Positions 34,776 through 36,254 of a stretch of 64,000 bases of DNA are shown here, piece after piece. How positions within the stretch are numbered: the first letter of the stretch is position 1; the number at the start of each line of letters is the position of its first letter. Under the pieces are notes generated by a model. The model was not told the origin of the DNA and ran no database searches. It saw nothing but the letters and a program-made list of their open reading frames with translations. The DNA comes from Pedobacter sp. SYSU D00535 (GTDB lineage Bacteria > Bacteroidota > Bacteroidia > Sphingobacteriales > Sphingobacteriaceae): contig NZ_JAFEWD010000003.1 in the NCBI RefSeq assembly GCF_017355855.1, positions 372,001 to 436,000 on the forward strand. The letters are read 5' to 3'. The position numbers and the translations under genes were made by a program.

Positions 34776-34850
34776 GGAGGCTTAGCTCAGCTGGTTCAGA
34801 GCATCTGCCTTACAAGCAGAGGGTCACTGGTTCGAATCCAGTAGCCTCCA
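34776..34850 (+). tRNA. tRNA-Val (anticodon TAC), copy 1
   Basis: 75-nt cloverleaf. Acceptor arms GGAGGCT and AGCCTCC pair, the anticodon loop is CTTACAA with anticodon TAC between TCTGC and GCAGA, and the T arm is CTGG-TTCGAAT-CCAG. The discriminator base is A and CCA is not encoded. Its sequence is identical to copy 2. Confidence 0.95.
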
Positions 34851-34896
34851 CAAAGTTCCCGGAAACGGAAACAATTTTTTAAGACATTTAATATTA

Positions 34897-34971
34897 GGAG
34901 GCTTAGCTCAGCTGGTTCAGAGCATCTGCCTTACAAGCAGAGGGTCACTGGTTCGAATCCAGTAGCCTCCA
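34897..34971 (+). tRNA. tRNA-Val (anticodon TAC), copy 2
   Basis: Identical 75-nt sequence, 46 bp after copy 1 and probably on the same transcript. It is followed directly by a hairpin terminator and the tandem array of GIY-YIG units. Its 3' two thirds are duplicated, with a changed anticodon arm, in every downstream unit. Confidence 0.95.
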
Positions 34972-34974
34972 CGG

Positions 34975-34999
34975 AAAGAGATCATCAGATCTCTTTTTT
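34975..34999 (+). terminator. Intrinsic terminator after tRNA-Val copy 2
   Basis: AAAGAGATC (34975-34983) and GATCTCTTT (34988-34996) around loop ATCA, then more T. The same hairpin recurs at 35336-35360, 35696-35720 and 36056-36080, after each tRNA remnant. Confidence 0.85.
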
Positions 35000-35026
35000 G
35001 TTTTGTGATCGACCTAAGCCACGTTT

Positions 35027-35326
35027 ATGTACACTGTATATATTCTCTACTCTGCTGTGCGCAATAAATACTACATTGGATCTACAGTAAATCTCTGCGA
35101 CCGACTAAAAAAACATAACACCCGGCACCGTGGCTTCACGGGAAAGGCGATGGATTGGGAGTTGAAATATTGGGAATTATTACCGGACCACTCTTCTGCT
35201 TTGAAGAGGGAAAGGGAGATGAAGAGCTGGAAAAGCAGACGAGTTATTGAGAAGCTTATTAGAAGCTCAGCTGGTTCAGAGCATCCCGACCTGCAGTCGG
35301 GAGGGTCACTGGTTCGAATCCAGTAG
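35027..35326 (+). CDS. GIY-YIG nuclease domain protein, 99 aa, with tRNA-encoded C-terminus
   Basis: Compact single-domain GIY-YIG protein of the UPF0213/YhbQ kind. Motifs: VYILYS with YYIGSTVNL for the GIY-YIG core, R27 region (CDRLKKHN), and Glu in [12 protein letters not shown] near residues 61-69. The natural domain ends about residue 79. The last 20 residues ([19 protein letters not shown]) are read through the adjacent tRNA-Val remnant and stop in its T arm at 35324. Expression is uncertain because a terminator sits 28 bp upstream of the ATG; a promoter may lie between. I recall similar tails in other Bacteroidota proteins, so the arrangement may be recurrent. Confidence 0.75.
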
Positions 35327-35332
35327 CCTCCA
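35274..35332 (+). pseudogene. tRNA-Val remnant 1 with replaced anticodon arm
   Basis: Matches the tRNA-Val genes from the D arm (AGCTCAGCTGGTTCAGAGC) to the 3' end (AGCCTCCA), but lacks the 5' acceptor strand. The anticodon arm CTGCCTTACAAGCAG is replaced by the near-palindrome CCCGACCTGCAGTCGGG. A functional tRNA is not expected. Confidence 0.85.
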
Positions 35333-35387
35333 CGGAAAGAGATCATCAGATCTCTTTTTTGTTTTGTGATCGACCTGAGCCACGTTT

Positions 35388-35686
35388 ATGTACACTGTAT
35401 ATGTTCTCTACTCTGCTGGGCGCAATAAATACTACATTGGATCTACAGCAAATCTCTGCGACCGACTAAAAAAACATAATACCCGCACCATGGCTTCACG
35501 GGAAAGGCGATGGATTGGGAGTTGAAATATTGGGAATTATTACCGGACCACTCTTCTGCTTTAAAGAGAGAAAGGGAGATGAAGAGCTGGAAAAGCAGAC
35601 GAGTTATTGAGAAGCTTATTAGCAGCTCAGCTGGTTCAGAGCATCCCGACCTGCAGTCGGGAGGGTCACTGGTTCGAATCCAGTAG
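35388..35686 (+). pseudogene. GIY-YIG gene copy 2, frameshifted
   Basis: Same ATG context as the intact copy. ACCCGGCACC has become ACCCGCACC near 35481-35489; the one-base loss shifts the frame and leads to an early stop (GGGAGTTGA) after about 45 codons. The original frame resumes in sequence but not in translation. Confidence 0.85.
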
Positions 35687-35692
35687 CCTCCA
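35634..35692 (+). pseudogene. tRNA-Val remnant 2 with replaced anticodon arm
   Basis: Same structure as remnant 1: no 5' acceptor strand, altered anticodon arm, intact T arm and 3' end. Confidence 0.85.
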
Positions 35693-35747
35693 CGGAAAGA
35701 GATCATCAGATCTCTTTTTTGTTTTGTGATCGACCTAAGCCACGTTT

Positions 35748-36046
35748 ATGTACACTGTATATATTCTCTACTCTGCTGTCCGCAATAAATACTACATAGG
35801 ATCTATAGCAAATCTCTGCGACCGATTAAAAAAACATAATACCCGGCACCATGGCTTCACGGGAAAGGCGATGAATTGGGAGTTGAAATATTGGGAATTA
35901 TTACCGGACTAGTCTTCTGCTATAAAGAGAGAAAGGGAGATGAAGAGCTGGAAAAGCAGACGAGTTATTAGAAACTTATTAGCAGCTCAGCTGGTTCAGA
36001 GCATCCCGACCTGCAGTCGGGAGGGTCACTGGTTCGAATCCAGTAG
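35748..36046 (+). pseudogene. GIY-YIG gene copy 3, nonsense and frameshift
   Basis: In frame until a TAG at 35910-35912 (CCGGACTAG in place of CCGGACCAC), truncating the product to 54 residues before the catalytic Glu region. A second lesion, a one-base deletion, lies further downstream. Confidence 0.85.
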
Positions 36047-36052
36047 CCTCCA
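35994..36052 (+). pseudogene. tRNA-Val remnant 3 with replaced anticodon arm
   Basis: Same structure as remnants 1 and 2, and no base differences seen from AGCTCAG to CCTCCA. Confidence 0.85.
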
Positions 36053-36254
36053 CGGAAAGAGATCATCAGATCTCTTTTTTGTTTTGTGATCGACCTGAGC
36101 CACGTTTATGTACACTGTATATGTTCTCTACTCTGCTGTGCGCAATAAATACTACATTGGATCTACAGCAAATCTCTGCGACCGACTAAAAAAACATCAT
36201 ACCCGGCACCATGGCTTCACGGGAAAGGCGATGGATTGGAGATCGACCTAAGCC
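36053..36254 (+). repeat. Tandem unit 4, truncated, with a rejoined internal fragment
   Basis: Begins like the other units and contains a GIY-YIG start (ATG at 36108), but homology breaks at about 36239 after GGCGATGGATTGG. It is joined to GATCGACCTAAGCC (36241-36254), which is itself a unit-internal sequence found just before the endonuclease ATG. After that the homology ends. This looks like the scar of a deletion between repeats. Confidence 0.8.

Follow-up and report, generated by a model that had tools for sequence, protein, structure and literature searches.

What has built up behind a pair of tRNA-Val genes in Pedobacter sp. SYSU D00535, where short repeats each join a nuclease gene to a piece of tRNA? 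The locus lies in a 64,000-nt stretch of contig NZ_JAFEWD010000003.1 (positions 372,001–436,000, assembly GCF_017355855.1), hereafter the window, in whose coordinates all positions are given. An initial annotation saw in this DNA a small element, carrying a nuclease and associated with a tRNA gene, that multiplies in tandem and decays, and our analysis supports that description. The array is one case of a module that is widespread in Bacteroidota. We put at about 0.5 the probability that it is one copy of a selfish module living on tRNA genes of this phylum, consisting of a nuclease and a palindrome and duplicated by break repair between tRNA copies.

Two identical tRNA-Val(TAC) genes precede the array, all on the + strand. 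The first (34776–34851) scores 74.2 bits; the second (34897–34972), seen both by tRNA prediction and as a match to the tRNA model, has the array directly on its 3′ side. Unit 1 (361 bp, 34973–35333) begins with a hairpin and T-run resembling an intrinsic terminator (34977–34999), which is present between tRNA and nuclease gene in every unit. Next comes an intact GIY-YIG nuclease gene of 99 amino acids (35027–35326), the C-terminus of which runs into a tRNA-Val copy (35264–35333). Units 2 (35334–35693) and 3 (35694–36053) are 360 bp long, with tRNA-Val copies at 35624–35693 and 35984–36053. The nuclease is frameshifted in unit 2, carries an in-frame TAG and a late 1-nt deletion in unit 3 and is cut off in unit 4, which is truncated to 186 bp (36054–36239). 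Tandem Repeats Finder (TRF) reports 3.7 copies with 95% matches, and the units differ from each other by 3–4%. The repeat layout and the state of the four gene copies are thus as the initial annotation had them. Directly 3′ of the truncated copy, the 14-nt sequence GATCGACCTAAGCC (36241–36254) repeats, apart from A/G variation, what stands before the ATG in the units and would be a scrap of a further unit. The array therefore probably once held at least five units, from which DNA was then lost by internal deletion. No copy of the unit was found elsewhere in the same genome, where only matches of 15–20 nt occur outside the array.

The tRNA copies had been read as merely 5′-truncated, which misses their main feature. 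The 5′ acceptor strand (nt 1–8) is gone, and in each copy the whole anticodon arm has also been swapped for the hairpin TCCCGACCTGCAGTCGGGA with a TCCCGA..TCGGGA stem. This palindrome, to which no strand is assigned, lies at 35284–35302 in unit 1, at 35644–35662 in unit 2 and at 36004–36022 in unit 3. The remnants score 28.5 bits against a tRNA cut-off of 29, the match covering model positions 9–63. Above the cut-off this genome has 49 tRNA matches; below it, at E ≤ 0.1, it has these three alone. Either strand of the tRNA copy folds well as single-stranded DNA (z = −2.6 over its entire length and −4.2 for the 23-nt arm, + strand). We rejected the idea that this genome simply carries the hairpin as a common dispersed repeat, because CCCGA..TCGGG is not enriched there (29 matches vs 31 for the control), yet all three tRNA copies carry it. 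Conservation of one exact anticodon hairpin was likewise rejected, since CCCGACCTGCAGTCGGG occurs exactly in this genome only, of 296. Across the relatives described below, the stem type is common and the loops differ.

The protein of unit 1 matches the GIY-YIG family (PF01541, E = 7e-16). In an alignment of 21 sequences Y16, G18, H30, E62 and K66 are invariant and R26 is conserved in at least 90%; we take these six to be the GIY-YIG active-site residues. Profile comparison gave 1zg2 (UPF0213) at E = 6e-13 and the best Slx1 at E = 1e-6. An AlphaFold2 model (mean predicted local distance difference test score 85) returned UPF0213/Slx1-type structures at Foldseek ranks 1–9, with a best E of 1.4e-3 and a probability of 1.00. 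Model and profile both place the nuclease nearest to the UPF0213 protein BH0048 and Slx1, with I-TevI and UvrC after them, a relationship that the initial annotation had not raised. The ratio of nonsynonymous to synonymous substitution rates (dN/dS) between orthologous modules was 0.07–0.17 in the 11 of 14 pairs that gave an estimate, the other three having saturated dS. A working nuclease is therefore kept by purifying selection across species, and the extra copies in the window decay. Among the window copies dN/dS was 0.43–0.99, the value for copy 3 being distorted by its late 1-nt deletion.

Related loci came from three sources. Set A consists of 79 loci kept from a five-sequence profile scan of a species-level genome collection, in which 273 relatives were confirmed. 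The titles of the profile-scan loci are Bacteroidota, save one “bacterium” and two that look mislabelled. Set B holds 17 of 29 loci from a nuclease search of 60 related genomes, with five duplicates of set A, six control-type genes and L023 left out. Set C holds 23 of 29 loci from a class-level genome scan, with the Pedobacter locus itself and five duplicates left out; at least two of its loci are also in set A (L064/L172 and L061/L185). Adjacency was scored to the nearest upstream tRNA on the same strand in the 112 loci with at least 200 bp upstream, so that L023 with its 95 bp falls outside. The nuclease gene follows a tRNA gene or tRNA copy of its own strand at a distance of at most 150 bp in 84 of these 112 loci (set A 56/73, set B 12/16, set C 16/23). 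The neighbour is an ordinary tRNA in 79 of the 112 and a palindrome-bearing copy in five of the 84 (L052, L068, L069, L084 and L129, the last classed by eye). UPF0213/YhbQ-type GIY-YIG genes of related genomes, presumably YhbQ-like, served as a control; none was near a tRNA (0/28 and 0/6), nor was a tRNA found within 1 kb upstream of them.

The expected link to a tRNA gene therefore held for most loci, 84 of the 112, though not for all. Nor is the module restricted to tRNA-Val: Val is the most frequent neighbour, and Ala, Met, Asn, Leu, Arg, Pro, Ser, Asp and Lys also occur. The non-Val neighbours are ordinary tRNAs, except at L052 and at two relabelled loci, L068 and L069, which ARAGORN called tRNA-Ile and which entered the isotype tests as Val. 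Related modules are found in single-contig assemblies (G086, G507, G596), in tandem in the two-contig assembly G552 and as a ten-copy nuclease array in G419. The window protein had no match at E ≤ 1e-3 among 50,697 phage or 72,556 plasmid records; IMG/VR gave one relative, at a contig end. Loci L081 and L093 carry Bacteroidota-type modules on contigs titled Bifidobacterium breve and Streptomyces griseus, which are probably contaminated or mislabelled metagenome-assembled genomes. Several relatives of the module are situated at contig ends, and in L292 (G503:C4:99700-103600) a run of N begins within the nuclease gene of an array; such modules seem to break assemblies.

In many genomes palindrome-bearing fragments stand on both sides of the tRNA, another feature absent from the initial annotation. 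The scan for partial copies covered the 96 loci where a tRNA lies no more than 1.3 kb away and its isotype could be called. Copies on the 3′ side, mostly running from nt 4–21 to the 3′ end, were present in 65 loci; 5′ copies upstream of the tRNA, mostly from nt 1 to nt 50–58 in the T-arm, were present in 41, and tandem 5′ copies reach eight in L124. The array in the window has 3′ copies only. In 24 Val loci both the 3′ copy and the local tRNA could be read, and over T-arm and acceptor the two agree with a median identity of 1.0 (15 identical), as compared with 0.74 for the tRNAs of other loci. The palindrome usually takes the place of the whole anticodon arm in Val-type loci; it covers part of that arm in the Met, Asn and Ala loci read, and the D-arm in one Pro locus. 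Some tRNA copies have a second palindrome in or near the T-loop, and in five loci (L020–L024) the stop codon of the open reading frame falls within or at the hairpin.

Unusual arrangements were also seen. In L068 and L069 the nuclease gene sits between complete tRNA-Val-like copies that have both acceptor strands and a palindromic anticodon arm (the ARAGORN call is tRNA-Ile(TAT)). In L193 (G005:C141:20800-21902), at a contig end, roughly seven 5′ tRNA-Val copies of 78 bp, each with a palindrome, form a tandem array directly followed by an intact tRNA-Val. L192 (G058:C35:1-700) and L191 (G058:C22) show tandem palindrome-bearing 5′ tRNA-Lys copies followed by an intact tRNA-Lys(CTT), and these may be relics, or the same process may have produced them independently.

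Lineages of the nuclease mostly stay with a single tRNA isotype even when the host family changes. On the nuclease tree, which is built on 82 columns and 122 rows and has many weakly supported forks, we counted 16 isotype changes against a mean of 32.3 and a minimum of 29 in 1000 shuffles. For the non-Val loci alone there were 13 changes (shuffled mean 22.1, minimum 18), and for all loci with the tRNA-derived tail excluded there were 17 (32.3 shuffled, minimum 29). Isotype agrees with that of the nearest relative from another host family in 62 of 75 loci, where shuffling gave 27.0 on average and at most 43, and in 21 of 31 non-Val loci (mean 1.6, maximum 10). The codes for host families could not be matched to NCBI names, so that a few of these “other family” pairs (e.g., f22/Weeksellaceae) may be one family, and the cross-family matches for Ala, Asn, Leu and most of Met are among coded families only. 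The label Met pools initiator and other CAT tRNAs. Isotype clades span host families, presence of the module is patchy, and clustering at the genus level follows the hosts.

The palindrome appears to be kept as DNA, because G-T pairs are scarce in its stem and the changes are paired. Among 49 distinct hairpins from 60 loci the stem positions change pairwise: position 2 goes from C-G to T-A and position 6 from A-T to C-G or G-C. The count took in contiguous stems only, from those hairpins (60 of 92) that have tRNA-slot flanks and are no longer than 22 nt; G-T pairs account for 6 of 363 (1.7%). In the terminators, which serve as the control for RNA hairpins (77 distinct, from 79 loci of the same sets), they make up 73 of 810 (9.0%; p = 4e-7, a rough value owing to shared ancestry). 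The 5′ and 3′ palindromes of a locus also resemble each other. Of 22 loci with both, 19 are Val loci, and in these 19 similarity was 0.64 within a locus vs 0.43 between loci, a difference reached in 0 of 2000 permutations, and in L128, L159 and L082 the palindromes on the two sides are identical. The two therefore share an origin or are homogenised. In a tRNA-Ala module (L029, G049:C9) the 5′ and 3′ palindromes are exact reverse complements of each other, as though the arm had been flipped. Scanning 198 genomes of the class for the exact pattern, we found the Val-type palindrome in 8 (16 matches, control 0); by coordinates, 11 of the matches are within 700 bp of a nuclease match and five are not.

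Sites without the element, which the initial annotation had proposed to look for in close relatives, do exist. In both sampled members of the genus of the window (G001 and G002), two tRNA-Val(TAC) genes stand after gpx, and the 2.5 kb examined contains neither nuclease nor palindrome. G012, of the same family, holds broken module copies at the corresponding gpx/tRNA-Val locus. In another genus, G538 has tRNA-Val, tRNA-Val and tRNA-Tyr without nuclease or palindrome in 3.6 kb, and G082 has two nuclease units and 5′ copies at the matching site (flank ~80% identical). G503 was also considered as an element-free counterpart of G082 and was discarded because a run of N starts inside a nuclease gene. 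A related nuclease (E ≤ 1e-15) occurs in 33 of 121 species of the G538/G082 genus, with tRNA linkage checked for part of them only.

These features can be joined in a mechanism. The nuclease would probably be expressed by read-through from the tRNA promoter, since its gene sits just 3′ of the tRNA terminator. It would cut DNA at tRNA-derived sites, the likeliest being the palindrome when extruded or single-stranded, and repair by homologous recombination between tRNA copies would duplicate, delete or transfer the unit. The intact tRNA gene would stay functional throughout. Homology to the tRNA would supply the choice of target, which would explain the isotype loyalty of the nuclease lineages. 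For the tandem step there is a demonstrated precedent: SegB, encoded in a tRNA cluster of phages T4 and T6, is reported to cleave in a tRNA region, and in T6 to drive tandem amplification of segB with tRNA-Tyr by homologous recombination (PMC13096335; PMC2988022). Three further papers report that Slx1 acts on branched DNA (PMC6902002), that the Slx1-related ANKLE1 cleaves cruciforms (PMC10287932) and that eukaryotic Slx-1 is linked to rDNA copy-number maintenance (PMC1564403).

The main competitor of the selfish-module reading is classical homing into the anticodon arm. Here a free-standing endonuclease would read the anticodon-arm DNA of one isotype and cut intact tRNA genes in element-free alleles, and repair would copy the module in; the flanking tRNA pieces would be homology arms, immune through their replaced anticodon arm, and the internal full tRNA a rescue copy. 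The initial annotation had chosen homing endonucleases for comparison, and they are the right one: the module has a GIY-YIG domain with conserved residues, and its gene is near a specific target gene of which alleles without it exist. Homing would account for the isotype loyalty and for the fact that the part replaced is usually the anticodon arm or a portion of it, by which isotypes are told apart. The 5′ piece (~nt 1–54) and the 3′ piece (~nt 10–76) resemble one tRNA split by an insertion, and the element-free sites and T4 SegB fit as well. However, the intact tRNA of the module keeps its native anticodon arm, which is also found in element-free genomes, so a homing nuclease would also cut the module's own tRNA. 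If the site is taken to be the anticodon arm, then the flanking copies are changed and the intact tRNA is unprotected. Moreover, immunity requires no palindrome, yet palindromes are maintained with paired changes, and a catalytic domain of 80 amino acids with no added DNA-binding module would be small for sequence-specific homing. On balance we regard classical homing as unlikely, with something like one chance in a few.

Passive hitchhiking is more doubtful still. The nuclease would then be a passenger behind strong tRNA promoters, and the tRNA fragments debris of tandem duplication, silenced by palindromes of the repetitive extragenic palindrome (REP) kind that had spread in some other way. 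Dispersed TCCCGATAGCTATCGGGA palindromes in G024 and G049, palindromic 5′ copies with no nearby nuclease gene and the second palindromes in or near the T-loop all fit such a history. It leaves the stem pattern hard to place, which is in all three tRNA copies and not enriched in its own genome, and it sits poorly with the purifying selection on the gene, with isotype-loyal lineages across families and with controls that are never at tRNAs. An improbable reading too is a domesticated locus with a cellular role at the RNA level, its hairpin and tRNA-like 3′ end acting either in regulation or processing of the nuclease transcript or in adjusting the dosage of tRNA. The conserved position, the tRNA-like 3′ end, the stop codons at the hairpin in L020–L024 and the strong purifying selection speak for it, but the scarce G-T pairs speak against an RNA-only constraint, and patchy presence, decayed tandem copies and element-free relatives do not suit a domesticated function. 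Finally, the worry that the array is an assembly or annotation artefact of repeated tRNA sequence, which several loci at contig ends or beside N runs might seem to encourage, can be given next to no weight, because the arrangement is repeated in many independent assemblies, single-contig ones included; the divergence between the window units argues in the same direction.

Several observations weigh against the selfish-module reading itself. Neither cleavage nor movement of the module has been observed. In 10 of the 31 non-Val loci the nearest relative from another family has a different isotype. Protein kinship within genera often follows the host, as in the clusters of Pedobacter and of Mucilaginibacter loci, which leaves recent horizontal transfer a conjecture, and the element-free sites may be losses. 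The automatic hairpin scan found no palindrome in 28 of 120 loci and mis-picked several, and palindrome-bearing 5′ tRNA copies stand without a nuclease gene in L146 (3088 bp examined) and L192 (700 bp). Furthermore, 12 other genomes were compared, and TCCCGA..TCGGGA is enriched in 10 of them, weakly so in two (4 vs 1 and 4 vs 0), in part through module arrays and in part through dispersed TCCCGATAGCTATCGGGA away from tRNA genes; the palindrome may therefore not be private to the module. The dispersed TCCCGATAGCTATCGGGA palindromes of G024 and G049 (L186–L190), which have shared flanks in G024, are possibly a REP-like family of some Bacteroidota.

The closest known systems each share a part of the selfish module as we read it. 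Like SegB, the nuclease is encoded by a free-standing GIY-YIG gene beside tRNA genes. SegB is phage-borne and is reported to have no isotype preference (PMC13096335), whereas the module is chromosomal and isotype-loyal, its tRNA fragments contain substituted palindromes, and its protein is minimal and Slx1/UPF0213-like. UPF0213/YhbQ and Slx1 are nearest in sequence and fold, but the UPF0213/YhbQ-type relatives in related genomes are not beside tRNA genes (0/34). REP palindromes pair with REP-associated tyrosine transposases (RAYTs), which are of the Y1 (HUH) type. Such a pairing of a palindrome with a DNA-acting protein is also seen in the module, but its unit has no Y1 transposase and its palindromes lie in tRNA copies without being enriched in their own genome. 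Behind the tRNA-Tyr gene of Escherichia coli tyrT there are tandem repeats carrying the tRNA 3′ end; unlike the module, these repeats are not known to have a nuclease gene or an anticodon-arm palindrome.

Integron gene cassettes, which follow a fixed promoter in tandem arrays, likewise consist of a gene and a palindromic site that forms a structure. The site of the module differs in being tRNA-derived and its gene in being always the same nuclease type. Six neighbouring proteins in the window (31.7–38.4 kb) are unrelated to the unit, the only gene of which is the GIY-YIG gene. There is no integrase among them, so the earlier statement that none is present stands for these six; the remaining window was not scanned for one. 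No description of the module arrangement was found in the open-access literature searched, with subscription papers and preprints mostly outside that search. The pieces have precedents, and as far as our searches go, the combination of a minimal Slx1-like nuclease, isotype loyalty and anticodon-arm palindromes has no known one.

The module thus looks like an unrecognised selfish element. More tentatively, and with the odds rather against it, it could represent a new class of minimal mobile or self-amplifying element: a Slx1-like nuclease of 80–100 amino acids together with anticodon-arm palindromes in tRNA fragments beside, and often flanking, an intact tRNA. Such an element would use tRNA homology as its address and break repair as its engine, would do without transposase, integrase or intron, and would have lineages specialised for about ten tRNA types across Bacteroidota. 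tRNA genes are classic landing sites of integrases; if our reading is right, they also have a phylum-wide parasite that works without an integrase and whose lineages are tied to tRNA types. This would account for small Bacteroidota GIY-YIG proteins with tRNA-derived C-termini, for pseudo-tRNA arrays and for some assembly breaks at tRNA genes. It would also tie bacterial Slx1-like nucleases to the control of repeat copy number, an idea testable with an 85-amino-acid protein and a 70-bp substrate.

Apart from the array, the window contains a 42-bp tandem repeat at 43379–43476, with 2.3 copies and 80% matches (TRF).

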